A DNA stretch of 64,000 nt from Bacteroidetes bacterium GWF2_43_63 (GTDB lineage Bacteria > Bacteroidota > Bacteroidia > Bacteroidales > DTU049), in NCBI GenBank assembly GCA_001769275.1, contig MEOQ01000014.1:1-64000 (forward strand), given 5' to 3'. Of this stretch, positions 37,812 through 60,151 are shown one piece after another. A program made the translations under genes and the position numbers. Position 1 is the first letter of the stretch. Each line of letters starts with the position of its first letter. The notes beneath the pieces were generated by a model. That model had not been told where the DNA came from. It saw only the letters and a list, made by a program, of their open reading frames with translations, and ran no database searches.

Positions 37812-40160
37812 ATGAAAACTTTCTTCATAGCGTTTCTGACGATCATCTGCTCAATTGCTGCATCAGCACAACAAAAATCGCCCGGCAGCGATAGTATTGA
37901 TGTGATCAGATATTCCATCAATATTGATACGGTTAACATTGCCGGGCAGCAGATTTACGGTTACACCGATGTGTATTTTCAACCGAAAGTGAACAATTTG
38001 CAATTCATTCCGCTCGATCTGCTGGAACTAATTGTTGACAGCGTGTTTCTCGAATCAGCACTAAACACAACATGGACCTACAACGACACGCTGCTCATGA
38101 TCCAGAGCCCGGTGCCAATGGCCATTAATGATACGCTGCATCTTAAAATTTATTATCACGGTCATCCGGTCATTGATCCCAGCGGCTGGGGTGGTTTTTA
38201 TTTCCAGAGTCCCTATGCCTACAATCTTGGGGTAGGATTCGAAGACAACCCCCACAACTACGGACGCGTCTGGTTCCCATGCATTGATGATTTCACCGAT
38301 AAGGCACTGTATGAATTGTATGTTCTGACCGATACCAATCAGATGGCCGTGTGCGGTGGAATGCTGCAGGATACAACACATCTGGAGTCTGGCGATCTGA
38401 TCGCATGGCATTGGGTAATGTCTGAGCCGGTTCCAACCTATATCGTTTCAATTGCTGTTGGGCCCTACGTTTGCGTGACTGACACCTTTGCCGGCGTCAA
38501 CGGGAATATTCCGATTGATATTTATGTTGCATCGTCTTATGTTGCCAAAGTTCCAGGCACATTTGTCAATCTCAAAAATATTCTGACAGCCTACGAAAAC
38601 CGCTTTGGGCCTTACATGTGGGAGCGCGTAGGGTATGTTGGAGTTCCATTCAATGCGGGTGCCATGGAACATGCCATGAATATTGCACTGCCCAATGCCA
38701 GCATTACAGGCAACACAGCCAACGAATCGCTATGCGCCCATGAACTTTCACACCATTGGTTCGGGGATCTGGTGACGTGTGCCACACCCGAAGAAATGTG
38801 GATAAATGAGGGCTGGGCTGTTTTTAGTGAATTTATAATGAAAGAAAGTATATACGGAGTGCCCGCTATGCAGGAATACATCCGCAATGTACACGCCTCT
38901 GTGCTTAGAACAGCTCATGTTGATGATGGTGGTTTTTATCCGGTAGGCAATGTCCCGCACAATATCACGTACGGCACAACGGTGTACGACAAAGGCGCTC
39001 TGGTGGCGCATACCCTGAGAAACTATATTGGCGATTCCTTGTTTTTTCCAGCATTGAAAGTTTATTTCGATAGTCTGAAATATGGTAATGCCAGTAATAA
39101 TCAATTGCGCGACATTCTCAGCGACGAAACAGGCATTGATCTGACCGACTTTTTCGACGCCTGGGTGCTGCGTGAAGGATTTCCGCATTTCGATGTTGAT
39201 TCCATGCATGTAGCGCCAGCCGGAGCAAATTCAACAGTGACTGTATATTTGCGTCAGAAACTCTACGGAACCACACAGTTTGCCAACAGCAACCGCGTGG
39301 AACTGACATTTATGGATTCGCTGTGGAACACACACACCGTCACCGCCAGCTTCTCGGGCCAGAGCGGCACCGATGTGTTTACGGTTCCTTTTGCTCCTTC
39401 TGTTGTAATTGTTGACATGGATGAAAAAACTGCGGATGCAATTGTCAGCTATAACAAAATCATTACTGCGCCATCCACCGCTGTATTCAACTATGCTTTC
39501 GTTGATATTGTTGTAAATAGTCTTTCAGACAGCATTTTTGTCAGAGCTGAACACCACAAGGCTGCCCCGGATCCGCTTGTTTCAAATCCTGAAATTTTCC
39601 GTCTTTCGCAAAGCCGCTATTGGCGCGTTACGGGGATGATTCCGGAAGAAACAGACTATCAGCTGAAATTCGACTATAATCGCACTAGCAACTTTTATGA
39701 CATAGAGTTACTGCCTGATAATGATTGCGTAGATTCGCTTGTGCTCGTCTATCGGCCCGGCCCGGGATTCGATTGGCAAATTTTCCCCTTCACAAAATCA
39801 GGAAACGACTACGCCGGCATGTTGACTACTGCTTATGGCCGCACAGGTGAATATGCACTAGCTGTCGGCGAACCCTTTCAAAGCGGAGTTTCTGAAAATG
39901 AGGGCACCCTGAAATTGAAATTATTTCCAAATCCATGCTCAGGCCTTCTTCAAATTGAAAATATTCCGGAAAGCTGTGCTGAACTCATCATCAGAGATTT
40001 CAACGGCAAGCTTTTGCTTAGACAATCTGTACCAAATGACGCGGCTTCAGCCAGCATCGATATTCGCAGCCTGGCTGCCGGAGAATACCTTGTCAGCTCA
40101 ATCAGCCATGATGGCAAAGTGGAGTCGTGCTCGACCTTAACGGTTATCGGTGCGAAGTAG
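37812..40160 (+). CDS. Secreted M1-family aminopeptidase with T9SS sorting domain
   Basis: The 782-residue protein is a zinc aminopeptidase of the gluzincin M1 family. It has a signal peptide ending IAASAQ (about residue 20). The aminopeptidase motif GAMEHAMN lies near residue 283. The zinc site HELSHHWFGD (about 309) has its third ligand Glu in WINEGWAVF (about 331). A possible catalytic Tyr is in TTVYDKGALV. From about residue 700 to the end is a T9SS type A sorting domain (KLFPNPCSGLLQIENI ... SLAAGEYLVSS). It should therefore cross the outer membrane through the T9SS encoded at the window's start and be released or anchored at the surface. Confidence 0.92.
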   Translation: MKTFFIAFLTIICSIAASAQQKSPGSDSIDVIRYSINIDTVNIAGQQIYGYTDVYFQPKVNNLQFIPLDLLELIVDSVFLESALNTTWTYNDTLLMIQSPVPMAINDTLHLKIYYHGHPVIDPSGWGGFYFQSPYAYNLGVGFEDNPHNYGRVWFPCIDDFTDKALYELYVLTDTNQMAVCGGMLQDTTHLESGDLIAWHWVMSEPVPTYIVSIAVGPYVCVTDTFAGVNGNIPIDIYVASSYVAKVPGTFVNLKNILTAYENRFGPYMWERVGYVGVPFNAGAMEHAMNIALPNASITGNTANESLCAHELSHHWFGDLVTCATPEEMWINEGWAVFSEFIMKESIYGVPAMQEYIRNVHASVLRTAHVDDGGFYPVGNVPHNITYGTTVYDKGALVAHTLRNYIGDSLFFPALKVYFDSLKYGNASNNQLRDILSDETGIDLTDFFDAWVLREGFPHFDVDSMHVAPAGANSTVTVYLRQKLYGTTQFANSNRVELTFMDSLWNTHTVTASFSGQSGTDVFTVPFAPSVVIVDMDEKTADAIVSYNKIITAPSTAVFNYAFVDIVVNSLSDSIFVRAEHHKAAPDPLVSNPEIFRLSQSRYWRVTGMIPEETDYQLKFDYNRTSNFYDIELLPDNDCVDSLVLVYRPGPGFDWQIFPFTKSGNDYAGMLTTAYGRTGEYALAVGEPFQSGVSENEGTLKLKLFPNPCSGLLQIENIPESCAELIIRDFNGKLLLRQSVPNDAASASIDIRSLAAGEYLVSSISHDGKVESCSTLTVIGAK

Positions 40161-45144: not shown

Positions 45145-45714
45145 ATGAATTCAGAACAGCTGATTCTTGGGATCGACCCGGGGACCAATATTATGGGATA
45201 TTGCCTGTTGAAGTATGATGGGCGAAATTATTCCATTCAGGACATTGGTTGTCTGCGTTTGTCAAAATGTGAAACCCATCTCGATAAACTACGTGGAATT
45301 GTAGAATTCACTTCTCAATTTCTCAATAAATACAAGCCTCAGGTAATGGCTATTGAGGAACCTTTTTTCGGGAAGAATGTTCAATCCATGCTAAAACTGG
45401 GGCGGGCCCAGGGCTCGATAATGTCGGTTGCAATGCAGCACGGTATTGAAATCGTTGAAATCACCCCGCGTCGCGTAAAGCAGGCAATAACTGGAAAAGG
45501 CTCTGCCTCTAAGGAGCAGGTCGCCGCTATGGTCGCCCATATTACCGGATACGATATTTCGGAACTCAACACCGACGCCACCGACGCAGCTGCCATTGCA
45601 ATTTCTTATACTTTGCAGAAAATTAAAACCGGATCCCCTTCTTCATCAAGGAAGAATAAAAGCAGCTCCTGGGATCAGTTTCTGCGAGAAAATCCCAATA
45701 AGATTCTTAAATAA
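45145..45714 (+). CDS. ruvC: Crossover junction endodeoxyribonuclease RuvC
   Basis: RuvC resolves Holliday junctions with RuvAB. The 189-residue product begins MNSEQLILGIDPGTNIMGYC, with catalytic Asp in IDPGT. The others are Glu in MAIEEPFFGKNVQS, and the acidic pair in the C-terminal NTDATDAAAIAI. The frame continues upstream to 45106, but the extra residues form an unlikely hydrophobic stretch and the -7 box lies inside it, so the ATG at 45145 is used. The transcript is probably leaderless. The 3' end overlaps the convergent HIT gene by 8 bp. The Ser/Lys-rich tail after residue 160 is not needed by the fold. Confidence 0.94.
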   Translation: MNSEQLILGIDPGTNIMGYCLLKYDGRNYSIQDIGCLRLSKCETHLDKLRGIVEFTSQFLNKYKPQVMAIEEPFFGKNVQSMLKLGRAQGSIMSVAMQHGIEIVEITPRRVKQAITGKGSASKEQVAAMVAHITGYDISELNTDATDAAAIAISYTLQKIKTGSPSSSRKNKSSSWDQFLRENPNKILK

Positions 45715-46102
45715 AATTGCCGCGGATTTGTTCTGCAATCGTGTGCAATTCCTCGTTTGACAGCTTCAGCTTTTCTTTCGAGAACTCAATGTCACGCATG
45801 CCACTTATAGGCACCAGGTGAATATGCGCATGTGGAACTTCAAGTCCAATAACAGCTACACCAACCCTTTTGCCCCAACCACCTTTTTGAATGGCTTTGG
45901 ACACTTTTTGCGCAAAACCCATCAGATCTGCCAATGCCGCAGGTTCAAGATCGAAGATATGATCAACTTCAGTTTTGGGCACAACCAGTGTGTGTCCGTA
46001 ATTCAACGGACTAATATCAAGAAAGGCAATGCAGGAAGCGGTTTCCGCAACGATGTGGGCCGGAATTTCACGTGCAATAATCTTTGAAAAAACAGAAGCC
46101 AT
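45707..46102 (-). CDS. HIT-family nucleotide-binding hydrolase
   Basis: The 131-residue protein is a histidine-triad enzyme (HinT-like) that removes the nucleotide from AMP-linked substrates. It starts SVFSKIIAREIPAHIVAET and has LDISPLNYGHTLVVPKTEVD. The catalytic triad is in VPHAHIHLVPI (HxHxH). Length matches HinT. It lies 2 bp after greA on the same strand and is probably co-transcribed. Confidence 0.92.
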   Translation of the reverse strand: MASVFSKIIAREIPAHIVAETASCIAFLDISPLNYGHTLVVPKTEVDHIFDLEPAALADLMGFAQKVSKAIQKGGWGKRVGVAVIGLEVPHAHIHLVPISGMRDIEFSKEKLKLSNEELHTIAEQIRGNFI

Positions 46103-46104
46103 CG

Positions 46105-46575
46105 TTAGTTAATTTCAAGCAGTTTAATACTGATAATACCCGCAGGGACTGTAACATCAGCAGATTCTCCAACCTTTTTTCCGAGTAAAGCCTGAGCGAT
46201 TGGACTGTTTACTGACAACTTTCCGGCTTTCAGATCAGCTTCCTGATCAGGTACCAGCGTGTAAGTCATTTTCTGCTTTGTCTTTTTGTTTTCAAGAGTC
46301 ACAGTTGAAAGAATACGAACTTTTGAATTGTCAAGTTTTGACTCATCAATAATTCTGCTATTGCTGACTATTTCCTGCAAATGGGAAATCTTCAGTTCCA
46401 GCATTCCCTGCGCATCTTTTGCTGCATCATACTCAGCATTTTCCGACAAGTCACCTTTGTCGCGGGCTTCGGCAATCTGCTTCGAAATCTTTGGCCTTTC
46501 GACACTCATCAATTGATTAAGATCGGCTTTCAGCTTTTCGAGCCCTTCCTTGGTAATGTAAGTCTGCTTCGCCAT
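46105..46575 (-). CDS. greA: Transcription elongation factor GreA
   Basis: GreA rescues backtracked RNA polymerase by stimulating cleavage of the RNA 3' end. The 156-residue product begins MAKQTYITKEGLEKLKADL, with the acidic coiled-coil tip in KGDLSENAEYDAAKDAQ. The C-terminal part has YTLVPDQEADLKAGKLSVNS and SPIAQALLGKKVGE. The frame runs on to 46641 but that stretch covers a large hairpin and a -7 box and is rejected. The HIT gene follows 2 bp later. Confidence 0.95.
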   Translation of the reverse strand: MAKQTYITKEGLEKLKADLNQLMSVERPKISKQIAEARDKGDLSENAEYDAAKDAQGMLELKISHLQEIVSNSRIIDESKLDNSKVRILSTVTLENKKTKQKMTYTLVPDQEADLKAGKLSVNSPIAQALLGKKVGESADVTVPAGIISIKLLEIN

Positions 46576-46594
46576 ATCACTTTCACTTAGGTTG

Positions 46595-46637
46595 TATAAA
46601 ACGAACAAGAAGACCTTTTGAAAGGCCCTCTTGCTCG
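46595..46637 (-). terminator. Long hairpin between the PorV-like gene and greA
   Basis: The arms 46637-46621 and 46618-46602 pair over 17 positions on the minus strand with three G-U wobbles (A.C mismatches on the plus strand). A tail TTTTATA follows (46601-46595). It is 44 bp past the PorV-like stop, so it may terminate that operon. Because the greA -7 box (46646-46639) is just upstream, it could instead be the first structure of the greA mRNA. Confidence 0.6.
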
Positions 46638-46638
46638 A

Positions 46639-46646
46639 CAAAATTA
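46639..46646 (-). promoter_or_regulatory. Candidate -7 box of greA
   Basis: The minus strand reads TAATTTTG, about 63 bp before the greA ATG and directly before the hairpin at 46637-46602. Confidence 0.4.
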
Positions 46647-46680: not shown

Positions 46681-47739
46681 TTACAGGTTAATTCTTGCTC
46701 CAATGCAATGTGTTCCCTGGAAAGGATTCGAAGTTCTGTAGGAATAATCCAGCGAGAATGTTGAACCTTTTTCCTTATTCAGCGGTACCTGAATGGTAAC
46801 ACCTGCCGTAGGACCAGTATAAGCCGAAGTGCGCTCATTGGAGTCGAACATACCCTTTTCATATTGCAAACCACCACGCAGCATCAGATAATCATTGAAG
46901 TTGTACTGCAGACCACCAGCGAAGAGATCTTTGCCAAATGACATTGACGTAAAACTTCCAGCCAGTGTGATGGTGTGAGCATCGTTGATTATGAAATCAT
47001 AAGCAGCACCAATGTTGAGGAGTGCAGGCAACTGGAATGAAACTGAACGCTGTTCAACAGTCATCAGGACATCTGAGTTGTTTACGTTGCCACGAAATGA
47101 CAATCCGTCACCGGTGTACTTCATTGTTGGTCCAATGTTACGCAGAGCAATACCAAAATGAATGTTTTCGTTGTCACCGGTCAGGTACTGAATACCAGCG
47201 TCAATTGCAACGCCCTGTGCGCGGTTGTCAGAAATTGATTCGGAAATCACTTTCAAAACCAGACCACCATAGATGCTGTTTGAAAACGCTTTGGCATAAG
47301 AAATACCAATATTCATGAATGATGGCTTGAATGTTCCAATGCCGCCTTCAGGAAGATCAACGGTGGTAATCATGATGTCGCCAAACCCCATGGTCATCAC
47401 TCCCAGGCCAATTACACCAGACTCACCTACTTTCTGAGTCAGACCAAATGAGTTTACACTGATTCCGGAGCCTTTCAGCCATTCGGTACGTGCAAACATC
47501 ACTTCGGTTGATTTGGTAAATGCAGTTCCGGCTACATTCAGATACATGCCTTCAAGACCACGAATGCTTGAGGTGTTAGACATGCCCCAACCCGAACTGC
47601 GGGCAAAAGGCATGATTAGAAGTTCACTTGCTCCAGCTTCACCAGCACGATCTTCGTTGCCGGCCAGCACAGGATTGACCGAAATTGTCAATACGGCGAG
47701 GAGTAATATTGCAAACAGATTTTTTACTGTATTTTTCAT
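46681..47739 (-). CDS. PorV/PorQ-family outer-membrane protein
   Basis: The 352-residue precursor has a signal peptide ending at about residue 26 (NPVLAG). The mature start AGASELLIMPFARSSGWGMS followed by GLEGMYLNVAGTAF fits the PorV/PorQ family. In that family GASxL...G leads into the barrel and a W/A-N-PAG-like motif; here the motif is the variant LNVAGTAF. About fourteen amphipathic strands follow, ending in IGARINL. PorV carries T9SS cargo from the translocon to the attachment complex. The gene lies 25 bp after the giant T9SS-sorted protein gene, so it may be dedicated to that cargo. Confidence 0.82.
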   Translation of the reverse strand: MKNTVKNLFAILLLAVLTISVNPVLAGNEDRAGEAGASELLIMPFARSSGWGMSNTSSIRGLEGMYLNVAGTAFTKSTEVMFARTEWLKGSGISVNSFGLTQKVGESGVIGLGVMTMGFGDIMITTVDLPEGGIGTFKPSFMNIGISYAKAFSNSIYGGLVLKVISESISDNRAQGVAIDAGIQYLTGDNENIHFGIALRNIGPTMKYTGDGLSFRGNVNNSDVLMTVEQRSVSFQLPALLNIGAAYDFIINDAHTITLAGSFTSMSFGKDLFAGGLQYNFNDYLMLRGGLQYEKGMFDSNERTSAYTGPTAGVTIQVPLNKEKGSTFSLDYSYRTSNPFQGTHCIGARINL

Positions 47740-47764
47740 TGCTTTCTCTCTTTAGTAGTTAACA

Positions 47765-50700
47765 TTAGAATGAATTCAGGTCAATCGGACGCAATGAACC
47801 AAACCACTTGATGGTACGTTCACCAATTCCTGGTGCATTTACATGAATCAGATACACTCCACCTGAGATTGGGATATTGGCCGAATTCTTCAGATCCCAG
47901 TCGATATAGGTATAGGAAGGATCATCACGCGTATATCTGCGAATCAAAGTACCATCTATGGTATAAATGCTAACAGTACATACTGAAGGCAGGTTGGTAA
48001 TCTTAACTCTGTTATCAAGCTGCGTTTCTTCGTATCCACTGGTTGCATAATATGGATTGGGGACAACATTAATCAGATCCAGCGCTGTTTTTGCAGTTTC
48101 AAGATCATTTTTCTTTGTCGCAATATCCGAAGTAGTGAAGCCATAGAGTGGGAAATTTTTGTTCTCCGCCGTCGTGCTTCCATAGGTTGAATAATTCGCA
48201 GCATATGGTTTTGATACCCTGATGCGAACACGTGCTTCATTGCTGAGCCATTCTTCGTCAGGCACTGATAATGGAATTGAGCACCACATTGCACTGGTAA
48301 ATACATAGCGCATTGAAGTTCCGGTACCCTCAGTTATTTTTGATGCAAGCCACTGTCCACCGTCATAAGCGGGACAATCCGTTGCATTGTTACTAATGTG
48401 ACCAAAGACATAAAGGAAATGCTTTCCACCAAAAAGAGTCTGGTTGAGGGCTTCATAAGAAGTTGTAGGATTGAACAACATATCACGGCCATTTTCGCCG
48501 ATGAGCCAGCTATCTTCACCAAAAGCTACATTCAGACGCTCACCGGTTTCAATGTTAATTGCATATCCTGGGAACCATCCCATACCGTTGGCGATGCCAT
48601 CGAAAGTTGCCTCAGGTGTGCCACTATTTCCGTTTTTATCAACGGAAGCATGTTTACGCATACCGTGTTTTTCTGCACCACCTTCAGATAGAAGAGGGTC
48701 TTCGCAAGTTTCAAGAACAGGACAACGGGTCCACTTGCTCTTGTCAGGTGTGAAAACTATATCAACACTGGCAAGATTGGCCATTTTATTTGTTGTAACA
48801 AGGAAAGGAGCTACAGAGGCAATTCCCGGGTTTTCAGGAATGTATGAAACTAGACGGAACGGAGCCCAGGTGCCACCAAGCAACTTCTCATAATACTGAC
48901 CTGCATCGAGATAAGAGCCCTGGAAAATAAAATCGTCATATTCATTATCCTCAGAATCGGTTGTACCGGAGCGGATCCAATTATATACTACTGGACCATC
49001 CATGTCAGGAATTCCACCCAACCACATACGATTTGGGTCTTCGTAGACAATATCAGCTTCAAGGAATCCATTTGTTGGATGTTCCTGATTTCCAGGAGCT
49101 TTCCCCTGAACAATGGTAACTGAAATTCCAAGGTCAACAAAAATCTGTTCAAATTTAGTTTGAATAGAATGGTCTGATGGATAGCTGGCGACAAAGTTGC
49201 CACTCATATCATATTCATCAAGAACCCATTTGGCAAGATGCATTGAATCAGCAATGGTGCTGGCGGTATCAAAGCGGAGTTGATAATTCGCTTCTTTCAC
49301 ATTCAGTGGATCAATTACTTTAATATCAACCGGTCCTTCGCCATTTTCATAAGTCGGTGTCAGAATGAAATTGTCAGCAAGAACAGCATTTCTGCTTTCC
49401 TCTGTCATTTCAAGAATTAGTCCGCCATTGCCCTGACCTTCAATACGGGTGATTTTCGGACCATCGCCATAATTGGCATTGATCATAGTTCCACTGCTTT
49501 CAGGTGCAGGAATGTGAGGAATACCAACATAGGTGTCTATGTTTTTACGACCAGCAAGATATGGTTTCTGTTGTCCATAAAGTGATGCCTGACCAGGAAT
49601 CTGGTAAGCAGGATCCTGAGAATATTTTTCATACTCGTTAAAGCCATAGGCAATAACCATGAAATAATATTTCTTATTGTTTACAAGGCGCTTGTCGCCA
49701 GTTGCGAACTGATCTTCGAGAACGCGGAACGAATGAACAATGCCTTCGTCGGCACCATCAACCTCTTCGCGGGGAACAACAGCACCCAGGTCATCAGAAA
49801 AATAGAAGTTAATCAGGCGTGATACACCGTTTTCAACATCACACTGCGCAATCAGACGAGCTTTGTCGCTGTCATAAAGATCAGTTGCGGAAACCGAAAT
49901 GTCATTAACCTGGAAAATCTGATAGCCTTCGAAACGATAGAGAGAATCATAGTGCACCGTTCCAGATGAAACAATGGAAGGATCACCTTCTTCATACTGC
50001 TCAAGATAGTTATTGCTGGTAGCAGTGTTTGTCAAAAAGAGAATAATCTCTTTATCAAGTTCCTGGATAGTGAGATCCGGAGCATCAGGGCCGTCAACTA
50101 CTTTGAAACAGTTGTCGAAAAGACGCTGGCATTTGTCATCTGTACGACGGAGCAATTCAACTGAAGCAAACGGGCCGCCAGAAGTTGCTCGTGCCCAAGG
50201 CAGACCAACTGTAATATAATTGAGTGCACCTGGTTTCAGAGTAAAAGGTCCGGCTGACTGCATAAAACGACGGTCATTAGGCTGGTTACCTGCTGTTTCT
50301 TCAGTCCATTTTTTAGGACCTGCAGGAGGAACACCACCGGTACCCCAATCACAAGGATCGGTTTCGTCGGGGAACATAAAATCACATTCAGGACCATAAG
50401 CACCAGAAGAGACGTGTGCATTTCCGCCATACATCATCTTGGTATTGTCTTTCCAAATACCACGGAGAAGATTGTAATACTCAACAGCAAAATCCGGGTC
50501 GGTCATATATTCTGGAGCTCCGGCTGTAGAATTGTTATGATATACAAAGCGACGCATACCGTAACGTTCGTCATCAATAATTCCGTTTCCAAAGTTCACA
50601 CCGTTGACGGCTTCGTTACAGTTTTCAGTTACCGTAGCGCCAGATGTATCAGTGTATTGTTTAAAGGCGCCATTATCAATGCCATCGGGGTCAATATATG

Positions 50701-51811
50701 GTCCCTGGAAAAAGTCAATACCAATGGCAGGAGGTTGATCACCATATCCAAAAGCGCCTTGTCCGTCTTCATCATACTGGTCTCCGTTATAGCAATAACC
50801 TAATCCACGAGCCACATCGCAACCAATATAGTCATCCAGTGAATAACCCAGGTCGGGGTCAGTCCAAAGCGACATATAAGTTTCCTGCAAAGTGTAAGTT
50901 GACCGGTTGATAATTTCAAAGGAGTAAAAAGTCATGTTATTGATCTCATCATTGGTAGAGAAAGCAAATGCCTGCGCACGGATTTCAAGACCAATGGAAG
51001 CTCCCTGAGTTTCTGTATGAACATTTCCTTTGTCGTTGAAAACCCACCAGATAGTCTGGTCACCTTTAAGAACCTGGTCAGCAAGTAAACCACCGGTAAC
51101 TATGCCTTCTTCGGTTTCAAGTGTTGGGTCTGGTTGGTGACAAAGACTGTTGGCAACATCATAATAAGGATAGTCACCCATGGTTGCATCGTACAACCCG
51201 TCCATGTCTGAGTCAAAAAATGGAGCCAGATACAAAGACTGTCCCTGATAAATATCTCCGTGGGCCGGATAAGTCAGAAAGTAAGCCGGAATAGAATAGT
51301 CCGGATATTCTGATGGGTTGGCTCTCCAGGCGAGGAATTCATCAACGTCTTTACGGTAAATGACATTCATTCTGTCATACTTGATACATGTTTCTGCACT
51401 AACGGCAGCTGTTCCGTCAATGGTCAACGGGCCAGGGAAAAAGTCGTTTCCAACCTGACGATACCTGTGAGCGGCCAGTTTCAGCTGACCATTAATGTCG
51501 GTACCACCAATCCACAAAGCGCCGGCAAACATCGAAGTCTTTTTTGAGCCATAAGGCACTTCATACTCGGCAACATCGGCAAGGTCCCACCACATATCAC
51601 CACCAGAGTTGATACGTGCACGGACATTGTTGATTTTTAATTCTGTGCTAACCGCTCCAGGGAGACAGGCCTCAGCAGCAGCTCTAAGTCTGATCTGAGT
51701 TCCATCCTGCTTGGATCGGCTTTCGACTACCGGTACTTTTCTGGCGTACGAGCCCATCGCCAGCCCGAGAAGACCGATAAACAATAGCGATGTGATTATA
51801 TTCTTTTTCAT
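47765..51811 (-). CDS. Giant T9SS-sorted surface protein
   Basis: The 1348-residue protein has a signal peptide (MKKNIITSLLFIGLLGLAMG) and no enzyme domain I recognise. The body is acidic and rich in Asp, Gly and Tyr, with segments like DSDMDGLYDATMGDYPYYD that recall calcium-binding type III repeats. From about residue 1245 there is a T9SS type A-like sorting domain (INVVPNPYYATSGYEETQLD ... DNRVKITNLPSVCTVSIYTI ... SGGVYLIHVNA). It is followed by an 18-residue end (ERTIKWFGSLRPIDLNSF). It lies 20 bp after the TonB-dependent receptor gene and 25 bp before the PorV-like gene. A surface-anchored partner of the receptor is inferred; the ligand is unknown. Confidence 0.85.
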   Translation of the reverse strand: MKKNIITSLLFIGLLGLAMGSYARKVPVVESRSKQDGTQIRLRAAAEACLPGAVSTELKINNVRARINSGGDMWWDLADVAEYEVPYGSKKTSMFAGALWIGGTDINGQLKLAAHRYRQVGNDFFPGPLTIDGTAAVSAETCIKYDRMNVIYRKDVDEFLAWRANPSEYPDYSIPAYFLTYPAHGDIYQGQSLYLAPFFDSDMDGLYDATMGDYPYYDVANSLCHQPDPTLETEEGIVTGGLLADQVLKGDQTIWWVFNDKGNVHTETQGASIGLEIRAQAFAFSTNDEINNMTFYSFEIINRSTYTLQETYMSLWTDPDLGYSLDDYIGCDVARGLGYCYNGDQYDEDGQGAFGYGDQPPAIGIDFFQGPYIDPDGIDNGAFKQYTDTSGATVTENCNEAVNGVNFGNGIIDDERYGMRRFVYHNNSTAGAPEYMTDPDFAVEYYNLLRGIWKDNTKMMYGGNAHVSSGAYGPECDFMFPDETDPCDWGTGGVPPAGPKKWTEETAGNQPNDRRFMQSAGPFTLKPGALNYITVGLPWARATSGGPFASVELLRRTDDKCQRLFDNCFKVVDGPDAPDLTIQELDKEIILFLTNTATSNNYLEQYEEGDPSIVSSGTVHYDSLYRFEGYQIFQVNDISVSATDLYDSDKARLIAQCDVENGVSRLINFYFSDDLGAVVPREEVDGADEGIVHSFRVLEDQFATGDKRLVNNKKYYFMVIAYGFNEYEKYSQDPAYQIPGQASLYGQQKPYLAGRKNIDTYVGIPHIPAPESSGTMINANYGDGPKITRIEGQGNGGLILEMTEESRNAVLADNFILTPTYENGEGPVDIKVIDPLNVKEANYQLRFDTASTIADSMHLAKWVLDEYDMSGNFVASYPSDHSIQTKFEQIFVDLGISVTIVQGKAPGNQEHPTNGFLEADIVYEDPNRMWLGGIPDMDGPVVYNWIRSGTTDSEDNEYDDFIFQGSYLDAGQYYEKLLGGTWAPFRLVSYIPENPGIASVAPFLVTTNKMANLASVDIVFTPDKSKWTRCPVLETCEDPLLSEGGAEKHGMRKHASVDKNGNSGTPEATFDGIANGMGWFPGYAINIETGERLNVAFGEDSWLIGENGRDMLFNPTTSYEALNQTLFGGKHFLYVFGHISNNATDCPAYDGGQWLASKITEGTGTSMRYVFTSAMWCSIPLSVPDEEWLSNEARVRIRVSKPYAANYSTYGSTTAENKNFPLYGFTTSDIATKKNDLETAKTALDLINVVPNPYYATSGYEETQLDNRVKITNLPSVCTVSIYTIDGTLIRRYTRDDPSYTYIDWDLKNSANIPISGGVYLIHVNAPGIGERTIKWFGSLRPIDLNSF

Positions 51812-51831
51812 ACTTCTATTTTTTTACTTTT

Positions 51832-54800
51832 TTAGAAACCGAAAGCAACACCAAATCTGATTCTTCTGGGCAAGCTGTAATTGTATGGGCTGTTAACAGC
51901 AAGAGAGTAAAGCGTGCGGTAAGCTTCTTCGTTAACCTGTGCTTCAATACCTGCCTGATATTCAGAGGCAGCAAGATATCCGTCATCATCAGCATTTCCG
52001 GTAGAACGATAAACATCAAGAATATTCTTACTGTTCAGAATGTTAAGAATTTCGAAGTACACATTCAGCACCATTTCTTTCTTTCCAATCTTCACGTCGA
52101 TGTCACGGTCAATACGTGAATCGATGCGGAACGACCATGGAAGACGACTTCCGTTTACCATACCCTGAAGCTGGTAATTTCCACCACTTAATATACCCGA
52201 AACTATGTTGCTTGACTTGCTGTAAGGAGTACCTGAACCACCAGTGAAAGTGAAGTTCACGCCAGTGTTCTGAAGCAGCGGCGAAACCTTAACTTTTCCG
52301 TCACCTACTTTTTTAGTAATCTTCGGACCATTGTAATTCTTGCCTGAACCGAAACGGTAGTCAAGTACAAGGGTAAATGCATGACGACGGTCGAAATCGA
52401 GCGGGTTCAATGTGCGGAGGTTCGGCTGACCGGTACGCACCAGGTTCATACCTGAGGAAGAGTTCGATCCGGTACCATCTGCAAACTGCAAGGTGTAGCT
52501 GGCTTTCATCCAGACATTGGCACTGCGGCGAAGGTCATAGGCAATGATCATACCTTTTACGGTACCAAAGTCGATGTTGTTAAAGGAATAATAATCGATC
52601 GGGTATCCGCCATAGAAACGATAGGACTGTACCAGATCGCGCATTTCGCGATAGTAAGCCGAGAATTTCAGAGCAGACTTAACACTAATCAGCTGCTGGA
52701 AGCCTAATTCGTAGTCAACCGTTTTCTCTGGTTTCAGATCAGGATTGCTGATAAATGCCTGAGCATTGGCCTGAATAAAGTAATAGTTAGTCGGGTCAAG
52801 ACGCAAACCTGAAGTTGGACGCTTCGATGTTACATCATAGTGAGCAAAGAATAAAGCTTCGTCAGAGATCGGGAATGAGAATGAAATACGCGGCATATAA
52901 GAAACCTGAGGTTTGTAATCCTTAAATGCGGCTGAAGTCGGTTTTGTCAGGGATGGATCTATCAGATAAGGAGCTATTCCGCTGGATGTTGAAATCAGGG
53001 ATGGGTCTGTAATCTGAGTTCCGAAAGCGTTATACCAAATATCACCATCGCGGTAACCAAGAATCTCATTTGGATTGTTCACATTGTCAACATAAACTGT
53101 GGCACTGCCAGGAATATTGCCTGGATGAACACCCAGATTGGTAACCTGGTCGGCAGTTTTTGCTTCATAAAATAAATACTTGTCTTCCAGGACCATCTGA
53201 TTGGCATCGAAACGGTCTACACGCAAACCAATGTTGAAGATGAGATCTTTGAAAGCAAACTTGTCCATGATGTAGCCTGCCATGTAAATAGGCTCAAAGG
53301 CACCAACTTCGCGAGTATAATTGCCATCAGCATCTTTCTTGGTGAAAAAGTCATCAAAACTAGGCTTGCTGGACAATTTCTTACCTGTGTAATCGTATCC
53401 GTAGTAAGTAACATAGGCATTACCTTCATTCAGCAATTCATCAGCTGAGAACCAATCGATGCTGAATACTGATGGATCATATGAATCAACATCAATCCAA
53501 TCTGTGTTTTCTTTGGCCAAACCGAGCGATTCGCGGAAGTTAATGTCGAATGCATACTGGCTGGCGCCATCATACAAACGGGAATATTCCACGGTATCGG
53601 TAAAAACACCATAAATATCTTCCTTGCGATAAGGATTATTTAAGTCAAGCTGCTCGATATGCGCATTTGTCAGCTGACGCATACGGGTCCAAAGCCCTAC
53701 CGGGCCAAATCCGCCATTATCACCTAATCCATAATAAGAATCGCTACGCTGTTCGTACTGGATACCAAACTGGAAAGCGTGATTTCCGATATCTGCCGAT
53801 GCATTTGCATTTACGCCGATTTGAGTGGCGTCTGACTTGTTGTATGCGTCATAAATGGTTCCAGGAGCAGCCCATAAGCTATAAATTGATTCAGGCTGCT
53901 GGCCATTCAGCAATGCTCCGGCATTCTGAATGTTAGTATAATTGGAATAATAACCGCTGTGCAAATCATATAAATCATAATACTGATTTGTATAATTTGA
54001 GGTGATGGGATTATTTGAACCTGGTTCAAAAGTTACCAGCGTATCATAAAAGTTGTTCAGCACATATACATTATATAGACCTTCTTCAGGAAGATCGGTC
54101 AGCTCATAAGATTTGGTTTTGTAGGTGTTGAATTTACCCCAATGACCATATTTGAACAGGTTATCCTTATGTGATGGATCCTGAACAAGAGAATTGTTTT
54201 TTGAGTAGTCAGCCTGGATGTTGTAAAAAACATTTTTCACAATCGACTTACTGGCAGTATCCGTGTTGAAGCGCTGGGTGAAACGGCCGAAAACGCGCCA
54301 GGTGCTATTGATCACCTGAGGATATTGATTGTAATTAAACATCGAATAGCTGTGAATGTAAGCCAGTCCGTTGTTGTAGTTGAGCGAACCACCAAAGGTA
54401 AGGTTGGTAGTGCTTGTTGTACGGACGTCAAGTTTCAGCGAAACATTGGCAGCATATGAAGGAGATTCGATTTTTGACTTGATTTTCTCAAGATTGTCCA
54501 TGGACACGAACTGCAGGTTCTGGTAAGTACCATAGCCAGTTCCGGTTTCGCGGAGCGGAAACTGTTCTACCTGAGCAAGGTAATCATCTTTCGCCTTATA
54601 AAGTCCGTCATAGAATGGTGAACCGTCTTTCTCGTAAGAAAACTCTCCTGCAAGGAAATATCCGAGCAAAGCGGTATTCTGCGTTGAATCTCTGCCCTTG
54701 AGCAGTGGTCCCTGCATATAGAGTCCAAGAAGGTTGTAATCGTAAGCATCGAGAAGTTTCGATGTTACCAATTCAGCTCCCATGCCGAAAGTACGGCTGG

Positions 54801-55479
54801 CACCCTTTGTAGTAATGTTTACAACACCACCGGTTGCATCACCGAAGTTTGCGGGCAGACCGCCGGTGATAACTGTTACCTGCTCGAGTGCAGATTTCGG
54901 AAGCGAAGATGAGCCACGCACGCGAACACCGTCGATGTACATTACTGTACCATCGGTACGACCACCGCGGATGGATCCCATTTCACCGTCAGAAGAAAAT
55001 ACACCACCCACGGTAACAGCAACCGAAGTTGCATCGCGGCCGGCCATTTTCTCGATTTCTTCCGATGTTACCGTACCTCCGGAAGAACCACCGTCCTTCT
55101 CAATGAGGGGAACTTTATAGTCAACAACCTCGAAAGTCGTCAGCGTAACTGCTGTCGACTCCATGTCAATGTCGAGGAAGGTGATTGTGCCGTCTTTCAC
55201 AACAACACCCTGAACCATCAATGGCTTGTAGCCAACATAAGTGGCTTTCACATCGTAGGTTCCCGGGTTAATCGGCTTAATAGTGTAATTTCCGTCGAAA
55301 TCGGTGGTTGATCCGCCCATTTGCTTGCCGCCGCTTTCAGCGACGATGTTAGCAAACGGGATGGGTTCTTTGGTTTCCTTATCCACCAATTTCCCTTTCA
55401 ACGTTCCGGATGACTGTGCGAGCAGCATCGAGCTCACAAACAAGGTCAATCCTAAGGCAGAGAGTAGTTTTCGAAACAT
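51832..55479 (-). CDS. TonB-dependent receptor with CarboxypepD_reg domain
   Basis: The 1215-residue receptor has a signal peptide ending at about residue 21 (SMLLAQ). A CarboxypepD_reg-like domain follows at about 26-115 (GTLKGKLVDKETKEPIPFAN ... GTYDVKATYVGYKPL). The plug (about 130-240) has SIRGGRTDGTVMYIDGVRVR and GLPANFGDATGGVVNITTKG. A large beta-barrel ends with PRRIRFGVAFGF, whose terminal Phe is typical of outer-membrane barrels. It lacks a SusD-like partner. Instead a giant T9SS cargo and a PorV-like protein follow in the same operon. The substrate is not known. Confidence 0.92.
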   Translation of the reverse strand: MFRKLLSALGLTLFVSSMLLAQSSGTLKGKLVDKETKEPIPFANIVAESGGKQMGGSTTDFDGNYTIKPINPGTYDVKATYVGYKPLMVQGVVVKDGTITFLDIDMESTAVTLTTFEVVDYKVPLIEKDGGSSGGTVTSEEIEKMAGRDATSVAVTVGGVFSSDGEMGSIRGGRTDGTVMYIDGVRVRGSSSLPKSALEQVTVITGGLPANFGDATGGVVNITTKGASRTFGMGAELVTSKLLDAYDYNLLGLYMQGPLLKGRDSTQNTALLGYFLAGEFSYEKDGSPFYDGLYKAKDDYLAQVEQFPLRETGTGYGTYQNLQFVSMDNLEKIKSKIESPSYAANVSLKLDVRTTSTTNLTFGGSLNYNNGLAYIHSYSMFNYNQYPQVINSTWRVFGRFTQRFNTDTASKSIVKNVFYNIQADYSKNNSLVQDPSHKDNLFKYGHWGKFNTYKTKSYELTDLPEEGLYNVYVLNNFYDTLVTFEPGSNNPITSNYTNQYYDLYDLHSGYYSNYTNIQNAGALLNGQQPESIYSLWAAPGTIYDAYNKSDATQIGVNANASADIGNHAFQFGIQYEQRSDSYYGLGDNGGFGPVGLWTRMRQLTNAHIEQLDLNNPYRKEDIYGVFTDTVEYSRLYDGASQYAFDINFRESLGLAKENTDWIDVDSYDPSVFSIDWFSADELLNEGNAYVTYYGYDYTGKKLSSKPSFDDFFTKKDADGNYTREVGAFEPIYMAGYIMDKFAFKDLIFNIGLRVDRFDANQMVLEDKYLFYEAKTADQVTNLGVHPGNIPGSATVYVDNVNNPNEILGYRDGDIWYNAFGTQITDPSLISTSSGIAPYLIDPSLTKPTSAAFKDYKPQVSYMPRISFSFPISDEALFFAHYDVTSKRPTSGLRLDPTNYYFIQANAQAFISNPDLKPEKTVDYELGFQQLISVKSALKFSAYYREMRDLVQSYRFYGGYPIDYYSFNNIDFGTVKGMIIAYDLRRSANVWMKASYTLQFADGTGSNSSSGMNLVRTGQPNLRTLNPLDFDRRHAFTLVLDYRFGSGKNYNGPKITKKVGDGKVKVSPLLQNTGVNFTFTGGSGTPYSKSSNIVSGILSGGNYQLQGMVNGSRLPWSFRIDSRIDRDIDVKIGKKEMVLNVYFEILNILNSKNILDVYRSTGNADDDGYLAASEYQAGIEAQVNEEAYRTLYSLAVNSPYNYSLPRRIRFGVAFGF

Positions 55480-56215: not shown

Positions 56216-56956
56216 TCAGAGTTTATTGATAACATCCATCACCATCTCTTTTTTTCGTCTGGAAATGGGAATTTCGGTTCCATCCTTCATGATAATGTAA
56301 CCACCATCATTGCGGACTACTGTTTTGATGTAATCAAGATTGATCAGGTGTGATTTGTGCGGTCGAATAAAATCCTTACCTGAAAGCTGCTCTTCAATCT
56401 CTTTGAGCGTTTTGGAAACAATAATTCTTTTTCCATCTTTCAGATAAAAATTTGTATAGCAATCATCGCTTTGACAGCGGATAATATCCGATGTTTCAAC
56501 GACATGCATGCCTTCGAACGTATGCAAAACTATTTTGCGTGGCTCCGGATTCAGGTTTTCCAACAGCGTTTTATAACTGATGGTCCGATCGGGAGCTGCA
56601 ATCTTTTCGCGATGCTTTTCAACCGCCTTTTTCAGATCATCGGGCAAAATGGGTTTCAGCAAATAATCCAAAGCACTGAATTTAATGGCTTTAATGGCAT
56701 ACTGATCGAATGCGGTGGTGAAAATGACATCAAAATCAATTTCAGGCAACATTTCGAGCAAGCGAAATCCGCTGCCATCGGGCATCTGAATATCCAGGAA
56801 AACCAGATCCGGCGTGTGTTGCTTGATGGCAGTCAGCCCGGATTCAACATCCATAGCTTCGGCAATTATCTGAACGTCGGGCACATAGCGTCCCAACAGT
56901 GCTTTCAGGGTAATTCTCGATGCGTCTTCGTCATCTATTATTATGGCTCGTATCAT
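56216..56956 (-). CDS. LytTR-family response regulator
   Basis: The 246-residue regulator has a receiver domain (AIIIDDEDASRITLKALLG, with the phospho-acceptor Asp in LVFLDIQMPDGSG near residue 55). A LytTR DNA-binding domain (about 150-246) follows, with FIRPHKSHLINLDYIKTVVR and GTEIPISRRKKE. It is the regulator of the propeller kinase encoded 39 bp upstream. LytTR regulators of this kind control surface or metabolic genes; the nearby TonB/T9SS trio is a natural candidate. Confidence 0.94.
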   Translation of the reverse strand: MIRAIIIDDEDASRITLKALLGRYVPDVQIIAEAMDVESGLTAIKQHTPDLVFLDIQMPDGSGFRLLEMLPEIDFDVIFTTAFDQYAIKAIKFSALDYLLKPILPDDLKKAVEKHREKIAAPDRTISYKTLLENLNPEPRKIVLHTFEGMHVVETSDIIRCQSDDCYTNFYLKDGKRIIVSKTLKEIEEQLSGKDFIRPHKSHLINLDYIKTVVRNDGGYIIMKDGTEIPISRRKKEMVMDVINKL

Positions 56957-56973
56957 AGCTCAATAATTTTGTT

Positions 56974-56981
56974 CAAAAATA
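56974..56981 (-). promoter_or_regulatory. Candidate -7 box before the LytTR gene
   Basis: The minus strand reads TATTTTTG. TTTG at 57000-56997 lies 15 bp further upstream, somewhat short for a -33. The regulator might be made from its own promoter. Confidence 0.35.
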
Positions 56982-56995
56982 CAAGAATTTTTCGC

Positions 56996-59900
56996 TCAAA
57001 GGTCAATAAAAGGAATCACAAGTCTCACCCTCGTTCCCGAGGCGTTTCCTGCTTCGTCCTTCAGATCGGTAATTTCTACGGAAATTTTATTTTTCAGATG
57101 TTTATTCAGAATGTCCAGCCGCTCTTTGGTGATAATGATTCCCTGCGATTTCTGAATCAACCCGCTCTTTTGCTTGATTTCCATGGCTTTCTCGCGTCCT
57201 ATTCCATTGTCTTCAATCACGCAGAGAATGTAATCTTCTTCTTCCCACATCTGCACCAGCAAGCGGCATTCGCCCGTTTTTTTATTCATAAACCCATGAA
57301 TAATTGCATTCTCGATGTAGGGCTGAACAATCATAGGAGGAATCCCCATATATTCAGTATCCATACCTGATTCAACACGAATTTCATAATGAAAACGGTT
57401 GTTGAATCGCATGTTTTCCAGATCGAGATAATGCTTCAGCAGCGATATTTCCTCGGATATAGGGATGTAGGCCTCGCGGCTGGTAGAGAGAATCAGCCTC
57501 ATTAGCTGACTAAATTTTGCCAGATAATTGATGGCGTTTTCCGAATCGTTCGAAATAATGAAACTCTGAATGGAATTGAGGGAATTAAAAATAAAATGCG
57601 GATTCATTTGCAGACGCAACGCTTTCTGCTCCAGATCGAACATTTCCTTTTCAATTTTCAGCACGCGGGTTTCAACCTCATTCTGTTGTCTGACTTTTTT
57701 TACCCTTCCTCTGATAAAGAGCCAGGTAATGAGCAAAGCTGCAACAAGAAGAAGGATTCTGAAAAACCATGTTTTATAAAATGGAGGTTTGACAATAATG
57801 ACAAATGATATTCCCTTTTCATTCCAAATCCCGTCGTTGTTTGTCCCCTTAACCATAAAATGATAAGTTCCGGGTTTCACGTCGGTGTACTCAGCCGTGC
57901 GGCGCGAAGCATCGGTTCGGATCCAGTCTTTGTCGTAATTCTTTAATATATATGCATATTGATTTTTCGACGAATTGGTATAGTCAAGCGCTGCGAATGA
58001 AACTGAAAAGAAATTATTGCTGGGACCAAGAATTACCGTGTCTCCATCATCGATATAAACACCATGAGGTTTGTTGAAAACATTGAATTCGGTAATTACG
58101 AGCTGTGGTATTTTTCTGTTTATTCTGATGCTTTTCGGATTAAACAGATTGAAGCCGTTCATGCCACCGACAACAATCCGGCCGTCAGAAAGAATTTCGG
58201 CAGCTCCCCCATTGAATTCATGACTCTGAATCCCATCATTTACATCATACAGGGCAACAGTGTTCTCTTTTGCATTGAACCTTATAAGTCCCGAATTGGA
58301 AGTCAGCCATAAGAAACCAGATCGGTCCTCAACAATATCGTAAATTACATTGTCAGGAAAGCCATCTTTTTTGCCATATTGTTTGAACACTCCTGTTTTT
58401 CGGTCATATTTATTCAGACCACCCCCGAATGTGCCCACCCAGATATTGCCATCTGAATCCTCAAATGTCGACAGAATTCTGTCGTTTGAAATACTAACAG
58501 GATTTCCTTTGTCGTGGTGAAAAACATAAATCTTTCCGGTTGCCGGGTCCAGTCTGTTGAGACCGTTAAAAGTGGATATCCACACAATACCGGCCATATC
58601 GACCATAACACTGTAAATATTGTTGCTTGAAACATTCCCCTTGCTCTCATATCCGGGATACAACCAGTTCCTGCAGCGAAAATTTGTCAGATCAATGCAA
58701 CTCACTCCACCCGTACAAGCGATCCAGAGGTTGTTTTTTGAATCCGGGGCTATCTTCCATACTTCGTTGCCTGCAATGCCGTTAGGGACACCGGCCGTAA
58801 ATATTTTTCTCACCTTTCCACTCTGATCAAGCAGGTACAAACCTTTTCCGGAGGTGCCGGCCCAGATATCGCCATTTTGGGTAACCTCCAGAGAAAGGAC
58901 CGGAATATGCCCGAAATCGTTTTTTGAAAAATGCGAAAACTGCTGGTCTGCAGCGCCAAATTCAATTAACCCACCGTAAGTGCCAACCAGAAGATTGCCA
59001 TTCTGAAGCGTTTGAAAAGCCCATATAAGATTATGATTGTGATCAAACTGAGTTCCTGAAATTCTGAAATGGGGAAATTTGTAGGCAAAATCGGAAAACA
59101 TATTCAGTCCGTGCATGGTCCCAATCCAAACTTCGCCTCCCGAGGAGCCGGCCAAACTGAGAATCCCATTGTTGATCAGTCCGTAACGACTGTTGAAGTC
59201 ACTGTAAATGTGCCGGAGTTCACACGATTTTGGATAATAAATATAGACCCCGTTTTCAGGCGTTGCAATCCAAAATCTATCACGATTGTCGCATAGCAAA
59301 CGGGTTACAGGCTGAGAAATCAGTTCTTCGGGCAGACCGGTATTATCCTCACATGATATTATATATTCTTCCAACGTTTGCTTATCTATCACATAGACTC
59401 CGCAATAGGTGCCAATCCAAAGCGATTTTTCAGATTCAGCAAACGATGTAATGACAGGTGTCTCGCCAGCTCCACACGTATTAACATCAATCCGTGTAAT
59501 CTGATTTGTTTTCAGGTCCATGAGTGCAACACCATGCTGTGTGCCGATCCATAGCCGGTTCATGTCATCGATGTGCAGCGACATAATCTGATCAGAGGGA
59601 ATTGATGCTGTTTTTCGATTACTCCGCGTATATCGGGTAAATTTTTCTTCAGCTATATTAAAGCTGCACAGACCTTTGTTGGTTCCAATCCATAAATTTC
59701 CAGTCTTGTCATAAGCCAGCGCACTAATACTGTCAGAAGGGGGGCTATTGGAGTTGTAAAAACTGAAGTAATACGTTTTGAAGGTATCTGCTTTGAACTT
59801 ATAAACATTCAATCCTTTGTCAGTCCCCACCCAAAGATTTCCGCTGTTGTCCTCTGCCAGCGCATTAATAGTTTCACAACTTATTTTCCCATTTGGTTTT

Positions 59901-60151
59901 GCATAATCAGGTCTGAAAATCTGGAATTTATACCCATCGAAACGATTCAGCCCATCCCAGGTGCCAATCCAAATGAATCCGCGCGAGTCCTGAAGGACAG
60001 TCTGAACGGTGTTTTGCGACAGGCCCTTACGGAAACTGTATATTTCGGAAGAGTAGCTGTCAAATGTCATCTCGTCGCTGCTTTGTGCAGTGACAGTACA
60101 GCCCGTCCAGATGAAAGCTGCAAATAATAGATATTTCCTGAATCGTGTCAA
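56996..60151 (-). CDS. LytS-type sensor kinase with periplasmic beta-propellers
   Basis: The 1051-residue kinase has a signal peptide ending VTAQ (about residue 23). Two seven-bladed propellers follow (about 30-690), with many WIGTxxGL-type repeats (IWIGTWDGLNRFDGYKFQ, LWIGTNKGLCSF, IWVGTFGGGLNKYDR). A Y_Y_Y domain (about 700-780) comes next, then one membrane helix (about 785-805). The His_kinase domain has LQMNPHFIFNSLNSIQSF (His near residue 851) and an HATPase with IVQPYIENAIIHGF. The architecture matches sensors of extracellular or periplasmic ligands, often glycans, in Bacteroidota. The partner LytTR gene is 39 bp downstream. Confidence 0.94.
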   Translation of the reverse strand: MTRFRKYLLFAAFIWTGCTVTAQSSDEMTFDSYSSEIYSFRKGLSQNTVQTVLQDSRGFIWIGTWDGLNRFDGYKFQIFRPDYAKPNGKISCETINALAEDNSGNLWVGTDKGLNVYKFKADTFKTYYFSFYNSNSPPSDSISALAYDKTGNLWIGTNKGLCSFNIAEEKFTRYTRSNRKTASIPSDQIMSLHIDDMNRLWIGTQHGVALMDLKTNQITRIDVNTCGAGETPVITSFAESEKSLWIGTYCGVYVIDKQTLEEYIISCEDNTGLPEELISQPVTRLLCDNRDRFWIATPENGVYIYYPKSCELRHIYSDFNSRYGLINNGILSLAGSSGGEVWIGTMHGLNMFSDFAYKFPHFRISGTQFDHNHNLIWAFQTLQNGNLLVGTYGGLIEFGAADQQFSHFSKNDFGHIPVLSLEVTQNGDIWAGTSGKGLYLLDQSGKVRKIFTAGVPNGIAGNEVWKIAPDSKNNLWIACTGGVSCIDLTNFRCRNWLYPGYESKGNVSSNNIYSVMVDMAGIVWISTFNGLNRLDPATGKIYVFHHDKGNPVSISNDRILSTFEDSDGNIWVGTFGGGLNKYDRKTGVFKQYGKKDGFPDNVIYDIVEDRSGFLWLTSNSGLIRFNAKENTVALYDVNDGIQSHEFNGGAAEILSDGRIVVGGMNGFNLFNPKSIRINRKIPQLVITEFNVFNKPHGVYIDDGDTVILGPSNNFFSVSFAALDYTNSSKNQYAYILKNYDKDWIRTDASRRTAEYTDVKPGTYHFMVKGTNNDGIWNEKGISFVIIVKPPFYKTWFFRILLLVAALLITWLFIRGRVKKVRQQNEVETRVLKIEKEMFDLEQKALRLQMNPHFIFNSLNSIQSFIISNDSENAINYLAKFSQLMRLILSTSREAYIPISEEISLLKHYLDLENMRFNNRFHYEIRVESGMDTEYMGIPPMIVQPYIENAIIHGFMNKKTGECRLLVQMWEEEDYILCVIEDNGIGREKAMEIKQKSGLIQKSQGIIITKERLDILNKHLKNKISVEITDLKDEAGNASGTRVRLVIPFIDL

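Follow-up and report, generated by a model that had tools for sequence, protein, structure and literature searches.

The first 64,000 nucleotides of contig MEOQ01000014.1 of Bacteroidetes bacterium GWF2_43_63 (the whole stretch analysed here, termed the window) carry three minus-strand open reading frames (ORFs) in the order TonB-dependent receptor, giant surface protein and PorV-like outer-membrane barrel, separated by gaps of 20 and 25 bp. We propose, with a probability of a little under 60%, that this trio forms a TonB uptake complex: its surface partner would reach the outside through the type IX secretion system (T9SS) and be kept there by a PorV-family barrel dedicated to it. An earlier reading made from the letters of the window (the sequence-only reading) had described three minus-strand genes with these gaps and pictured a receptor whose surface lid is delivered by the T9SS with its own shuttle, instead of a SusC/SusD pair; the genes and gaps are as it described them, and the system is real and general. 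The three genes of the window are:

51832-55479, minus strand: TonB-dependent receptor, first gene of the trio; 1215 residues (aa), with signal peptide, CarboxypepD_reg domain, plug and barrel.
47765-51811, minus strand: giant surface protein; 1348 aa, with signal peptide, predicted beta-supersandwich, more beta domains, T9SS-type C-terminal domain (CTD) and terminal tail.
46681-47739, minus strand: PorV/PorQ-family outer-membrane barrel; 352 aa, neither PorV nor PorQ itself, and the proposed shuttle and anchor of the giant.

A sample of 198 genomes, drawn evenly across the phylum, was searched with a profile of the giant core (aa 200-780, alignment A3; E<=1e-10), and loci were taken from all 101 genomes in which the core was found (70 of 103 genera); the receptor and the barrel played no part in choosing them. 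Neighbouring genes were counted as partners if they lay on the same strand with a gap of at most 400 bp or an overlap of at most 150 bp, limits that miss one locus (L219) and two loci of genome G179 although the partners are present. By this measure, 104 of 131 giants have a receptor upstream and a barrel downstream, with median intergenic gaps of 23 and 20 bp, and the full trio lies on one strand in 87 of the 101 genomes; the gene arrangement is therefore not due to chance. A second set, made up of 80 named loci and biased in that the closest relatives were taken first, gave a trio for 67 of 82 giants. The T9SS translocon SprA was found in 154 of the 198 genomes, including all 101 with the giant core, and the core occurs in none of the 44 genomes without SprA. 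Eight of the 14 core genomes in which no trio was counted are cut by a contig end and have a partner on the uncut side (G022, G027, G045, G104, G123, G128, G131 and G135). G136 has the receptor only, the trio of G179 was missed through the thresholds, and in G152 (locus L062) a giant with an in-frame TGA lies in two pieces between receptor and barrel, beside further giant sequence.

Trees of the three proteins from the 104 trios show the same perfect 51/53 split, with support of 1.0. Across both sets of loci, the clade that contains the window (the window clade) comprises 118 of 171 trios and its sister clade 53. Distance matrices for the 104 trios correlate at 0.945 for receptor and giant, 0.909 for giant and barrel, and 0.904 for receptor and barrel; common descent by itself would produce such a correlation but would leave the adjacency unexplained. 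Between two and four trios (28 in total) were found at the fetched loci of 11 genomes, with identities within a genome of 24-56% at best. For 16 of the 28, all three proteins are 67-100% identical to those of the nearest trio in another genome, and for the other 12 the value is 42-67%; all three proteins pick the same nearest trio in 16 of the 28 (manual tally). G003, for instance, has four trios that are at most 45% identical to one another, each with a counterpart in another genome that is 77-100% identical in all three proteins; two of these counterparts lie in G008, a near-identical species. Lack of conservation, which the sequence-only reading had named as the result that would speak against it, is not what this neighbourhood survey found: the trio is phylum-wide and co-inherited. 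At one locus (L211, genome G112), receptor, giant, barrel, a giant-like ORF of 946 aa and a second barrel follow one another consecutively; this arrangement suggests that cargo and barrel duplicate as a unit, leaving the receptor single.

The same data bear on a different account, in which giant and barrel make up a surface module (an adhesin, a binding or a structural element) on a dedicated anchor and are merely co-regulated with the receptor, with no lid and no shared complex. The receptor-giant distances correlate best of the three pairs, and the two uncut single-partner loci (G136 and L141; small numbers, with threshold losses excluded) keep the receptor and not the barrel, so that the receptor is at least as tightly tied to the giant as the barrel is. 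We consider a surface module of this kind unlikely, although some giants without receptor or barrel retain the terminal tail (11 examined), giants stand in tandem at L041, L062, L099 and L169, and type B T9SS cargos with their own SprF barrels have been described as putative adhesins (PMC12618676).

Four segments of the giant are referred to below:

47807-48094, minus strand: aa 1240-1335, T9SS type A-like CTD, closest to the PorZ CTD (PorZ 25 bits, TIGR04183 17.1 bits).
47768-47806, minus strand: aa 1336-1348, the residues beyond the nearly invariant K1335, ending in F; compared with the sister clade, the CTD end is extended by 8-10 residues.
50102-51667, minus strand: aa 49-570, predicted beta-supersandwich of the GH15/GH94/GH116 type, without the catalytic helical barrel (best Z 18.8, VIA-align).
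50771-50860, minus strand: aa 318-347, with the invariant acidic residues D318, D326, D327, D332 and D347 (invariant columns among 20 giants).

Among the C-terminal ends of 20 giants and one control peptidase, matches at E<=0.01 were obtained to the PorZ CTD end in 20 of 21, to TIGR04183 in 19, to PorU in 17 and to the Pfam type A model in seven. The window CTD has no Pfam match at this threshold and stays below the TIGR04183 cut-off of 23 bits, so that the T9SS reading stands for the family and not from the window sequence alone; in the relative L074 the CTD was modelled with high confidence. The T9SS-type CTD named in the sequence-only reading is thus upheld at the level of the family and sub-threshold in the window itself. 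The unusual KWFGSLRPIDLNSF end that it placed after this domain is real and clade-specific: 113 of the 118 window-clade giants finish in F, Y or L, and the distance from the G-x-Y motif to the end is 31-35 residues in all 118. In the sister clade, this distance is 23-24 residues (35/53 measurable) and 40 of 53 giants end in K. As a yardstick, eight of 14 ordinary T9SS proteins gave 23 residues, one gave 29, three gave 14 and two were unmeasurable; the motif pattern used for them was slightly different, and the three values of 14 arose where it caught a later spot. We rejected the idea that the tail is a universal signal, given that the sister clade stops at the canonical CTD length.

The window barrel scores 139.1 bits against the NCBIfam PorV/PorQ family model NF033709 (cut-off 90), in agreement with the PorV/PorQ-like barrel of the sequence-only reading, and falls below the equivalog cut-offs for PorV (55.9 against 250 bits), PorQ (57 against 220) and PorV2 (39.8 against 325). 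All 20 trio barrels tested match NF033709 at E<=0.001. The PorP/SprF model (TIGR03519) gave no match to the window barrel and weak matches to two of the 20. In a fold search with the modelled barrel of a relative, the first match (E 1.3e-14) was to the substrate-bound T9SS translocon 8gl6, namely to its chain F, which is taken to be PorV; FadL structures came next. When the CTD and the PorV-like barrel of L074 were modelled as one chain, with the stop read through, the predicted local distance difference test score (pLDDT) was 85.3, with the CTD blocks at about 84-95, and the predicted template modelling score (pTM) was 0.84; by our own estimate, random placement of the CTD would be expected to give a pTM of about 0.7, as about 330 of the 485 residues lie in the barrel. 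For the PorV-like protein, anchoring may be as much of a role as shuttling.

The FadL structures among these fold matches, together with a much better PorV-family match elsewhere in the genome that is probably PorV itself (C26:73246-74319, 437 bits), would suit a scheme in which the PorV-like gene encodes a FadL-type channel for small hydrophobic compounds, unrelated to a giant that uses ordinary PorV. We regard this as very unlikely, because all 20 trio barrels tested match the PorV/PorQ family, the first structural match is a translocon chain, the barrel adjoins and co-segregates with the giant, and the joint model with the CTD is confident. A FadL-type barrel that holds another protein by its extracellular loops is known from BamG-BamH of the Bacteroidota BAM complex; unlike the trio, that pair is part of barrel assembly, and the BamG model matches two of the 20 trio barrels, weakly (PMC12578637).

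T9SS components provide further parallels. The CTDs of PorU and PorZ stay uncleaved on PorV and PorQ, and a review suggests that cognate PorV-like barrels shield the CTD from cleavage (PMC10202324). Because the trio CTDs match those of PorZ and PorU, and every giant of a trio comes with a PorV-family barrel of its own, retention of the CTD is favoured. Like PorZ/PorQ and PorU/PorV, the trio combines a type A-like CTD, closest to that of PorZ, with a PorV-family barrel to hold it; whereas PorZ/PorQ serve the secretion machine, the trio cargo is about 1000-1700 aa long and tied to a TonB receptor, and its barrel scores below the PorQ and PorV cut-offs. In a published account of CTD types, type A CTDs are all recognised by PorV and type B CTDs by cognate PorP/SprF barrels encoded next door, and in F. 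johnsoniae a single shuttle serves three orphan type B cargos (PMC12618676). The trio resembles the F. johnsoniae type B cargos in having a dedicated barrel gene directly downstream and in orphan cargos that possibly share a barrel, and differs from them in its type A-like CTD, its PorV/PorQ-family barrel and the addition of a TonB receptor (PMC12618676).

The window receptor matches CarboxypepD_reg (PF13620; 56.3 bits, cut-off 32.3) and Plug (PF07715; 30.8 bits, cut-off 23.9), both above cut-off, confirming the CarboxypepD_reg/TonB receptor first read from the sequence. In a sequence search against solved structures, its match was limited to the N-terminal domain, and the giant and the barrel gave nothing useful; the giant also has no Pfam match at E<=1. 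A model of giant aa 30-1229, made with 54 relatives, has a mean pLDDT of 86.0 and a pTM of 0.75 and is predominantly beta, and the fold search with this model barely probed residues past model position 726. Model residues 20-541 match the N-terminal domains of dextran dextrinase, glucoamylase, glucodextranase, cellodextrin phosphorylase and GH116 enzymes, with Z of 18.8-16 and a root-mean-square deviation (rmsd) of 3.0-3.9 over about 230-270 residues (at least 37 entries at Z 16 or more). The best VIA-align match is chain 9ju0_BBB (Z 18.8, rmsd 3.1, 254 residues aligned), and the best Foldseek E is 7.5e-5. We take this fold to be the domain called beta-supersandwich. The catalytic (alpha/alpha)6 barrel was not found past model residue 541, where the model is predicted to be beta with few short helices, and the N-terminal half of the modelled giant is therefore read as a non-catalytic, sugar-related fold. 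The acidic stretch at aa 318-347 is probably structural or metal-binding, judging from its invariant columns.

A SusD chain was absent among the fold-search matches listed for the giant; since this does not exclude SusD, the argument that the giant is not SusD rests on sequence and secondary structure. A simple ad hoc rule detected a hydrophobic signal segment but no lipobox-like motif in the window giant, as in 158 of 171 trio giants; nine have a lipobox-like match and four have neither. With SusC/SusD glycan uptake complexes and utilisomes, the trio shares a CarboxypepD_reg-type TonB receptor beside the gene for a large surface protein and, in the sister clade, a place in glycan loci with hydrolases and regulators. 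In contrast to SusD, the trio partner is not SusD by sequence, lacks a lipobox, is mostly beta and not helical, and has a T9SS-type CTD and a PorV-type barrel alongside. The partner fails the SusD tests and the trio is thus not a member of SusCD, but it may work like one.

Under the uptake proposal, the three proteins would form a single outer-membrane complex. The giant would be exported through SprA by way of its type A-like CTD and be met there by its own PorV-family barrel, which would pull it out of SprA and then serve as its membrane anchor, where SusD uses a lipid. With the CTD uncleaved, the giant would stay non-covalently on the barrel, as PorZ does on PorQ. Its supersandwich and other beta domains would stand over the receptor and capture or gate the substrate, so that the giant would do for the receptor what SusD and surface glycan-binding proteins do for SusC. 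The substrates of the sister clade would be the glycans of the adjoining degradation loci, and barrel-less giants with the same kind of tail (for example, the copy on contig C18 of the window genome) could use the same barrel in trans. We infer the retention of the CTD, the contact between giant and receptor, and the uptake function; the giant is a candidate lid, and the receptor is likely the third member. The prediction that the giant is delivered by the T9SS with a dedicated shuttle, as the sequence-only reading had it, is well supported by the occurrence of SprA in every core genome, the family membership of the barrels, the joint CTD-barrel model and the CTD matches.

We scored SusD by PF14322 at E<=0.001 (102 genomes; 97 above cut-off) and, in the window genome, by PF07980 as well; the window genome has zero matches to either model. 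The 154 SprA genomes divide into 51 with the giant core only, 51 with SusD only, 50 with both and two with neither (G005 and G164). As 50 genomes have both, replacement of SusD is not strict. No SusD was found in 38 of 57 genomes with the window clade versus 13 of 44 with only the sister clade, where the clade label follows the best E-value and matches weaker than 1e-30 count as sister clade only. Among 40 relatives of the window genome, the median SusD count is 0 in those with the giant (n = 21) versus 6 in those without (n = 19; Mann-Whitney p=2e-4), and with one genome taken from each family other than the window's own the medians are 1 (n = 10) versus 6.5 (n = 18; p=0.018); all 40 were counted, 31 of them with completeness of at least 90% and contamination of at most 5%, and shared ancestry inflates these p values. 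The window's own family is represented by 12 genomes, of which 11 carry the giant and three a SusD. The suggestion that the trio occurs instead of SusC/SusD draws support from this complementary distribution and from sister-clade glycan loci that have the trio in the place expected for SusCD, but it fails as a strict rule. We hold only tentatively, at somewhat less than even odds, the broader view that the trio is a third, T9SS-built uptake class throughout the Bacteroidota, with a retained CTD, that predates or stands in for SusCD and explains large-substrate uptake in T9SS lineages without detectable SusD (51 of 154).

The two clades differ in their gene neighbourhoods. Neighbours were defined as ORFs of at least 200 aa within 5.5 kb, at 15 loci per clade (15 of 16 chosen further-copy loci for the sister clade, with L219 dropped, and 15 drawn at random from 49 for the window clade), and the 25 commonest families were listed (of 59 for the sister clade and 120 for the window clade). 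Of 67 sister-clade neighbours, 18 are T9SS-tailed, eight are LacI-type sugar-binding proteins (six with a LacI DNA-binding domain), and GHL10, CBM9 and ABC permease domains occur four times each; GntR regulators and GH3, alpha-amylase, GH66, GH77, GH130 and glucoamylase-like families are also present. Single loci hold GH35 with GH53 (L230), GH16 (L229) and a full LacI-ABC-GH130 set (L220). At L185 and similar loci (family f23), a T9SS-tailed protein that matches CBM20 and DUF5689 comes after the sister-clade trio, next to it stands an ORF that is LacI-like by eye, and a PpiC-type protein precedes the trio. The 88 window-clade neighbours are led by GWxTD proteins (nine), 2-hydroxyacid dehydrogenases (five) and lipid A acyltransferase (five). 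A GWxTD-domain protein often stands directly after the PorV-like gene in window-clade trios outside the window's class (L048, L154, L173 and others). Sister-clade trios thus lie in glycan-utilisation loci, and window-clade trios among housekeeping and envelope genes. By gene context, glycan uptake is well grounded for the sister clade; for the window clade it is a guess.

In the window, greA and a HIT-domain gene (45707-46641) come after the trio. Relatives of both follow the trio at all six other same-class loci of the sample and at 58 (greA) and 57 (HIT) of the 67 named trio loci, and at none of the 97 remaining sample trio loci; the place before greA and HIT is old, fixed and housekeeping within the class. 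This fixed place, the envelope-related neighbours (lipid A acyltransferase, glycosyltransferase 9, M23 peptidase, UDP-sugar dehydrogenases and GWxTD proteins) and the finding of at most one trio at the fetched loci in 90 of 101 genomes would fit a window-clade trio that serves the envelope, for example by binding, recycling or displaying surface polysaccharide or lipopolysaccharide, in which case the TonB barrel would act in signalling or retrieval. We think such a role improbable, as the same three genes stand in catabolic glycan loci in the sister clade and the named envelope neighbours are a minority scattered over the 15 loci.

A number of observations weigh against an uptake complex of the proposed kind. 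No glycan-degrading family is among the 25 commonest of the 120 window-clade neighbour families. Three of the 101 core genomes (G055, G120 and G124) have no partner adjacent to the giant at the locus examined, nine of the 82 giants in the second set lack both receptor and barrel, and genome counts are not phylogenetically independent. SusD, scored by PF14322 alone, accompanies the giant in 50 genomes; the window CTD by itself is below the type A cut-off; and the pTM of the joint CTD-barrel model comes from two genes fused as one chain, which biases toward contact. The window genome has two more giants (G000:C18:596-4531 and G000:C43:93524-97207, loci L034 and L035; 61-62% identical), of which the C18 copy has no adjacent partner and the C43 copy has no receptor before it and is cut at its end. 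Since C43 ends and C18 begins inside giant sequence, the two may represent tandem neighbours that the assembly separated.

If the uptake proposal is true, SusC/SusD would not be the sole large-substrate importer of the phylum, and a second, T9SS-dependent design would be present in roughly half of the genomes sampled (101 of 198); T9SS mutants would therefore also be uptake mutants. Type A-like cargos with dedicated barrels would be added to a field that is said to have all type A CTDs using PorV (PMC12618676). The trio would also bear on the scarcity of susCD in glycan clusters of Ignavibacteriales and its absence in Ca. Kapabacteria, a point left open in the literature (PMC10576277). A description of the trio was not found in the literature among the matches listed, from a search that lay outside most subscription papers and all preprints.

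The window genome (3.98 Mb in 51 contigs) contains SprA, 22 Plug matches and five PorV-family matches. An M1 peptidase at 37812-40160 of the window ends in an ordinary T9SS type A tail, an independent sign that the genome uses the T9SS. Upstream of the trio lie a LytTR response regulator and a propeller-type sensor kinase (56216-60151). The notion that this two-component pair is peculiar to the window was dropped: of 170 other trio loci, 15, all of the window clade, have a related LytTR-type regulator within 5 kb upstream (on the same strand in 14), and a related kinase is likewise found at 15. Such genes are common, so chance may account for these neighbours; it is possible that the pair regulates the trio in part of the window clade.

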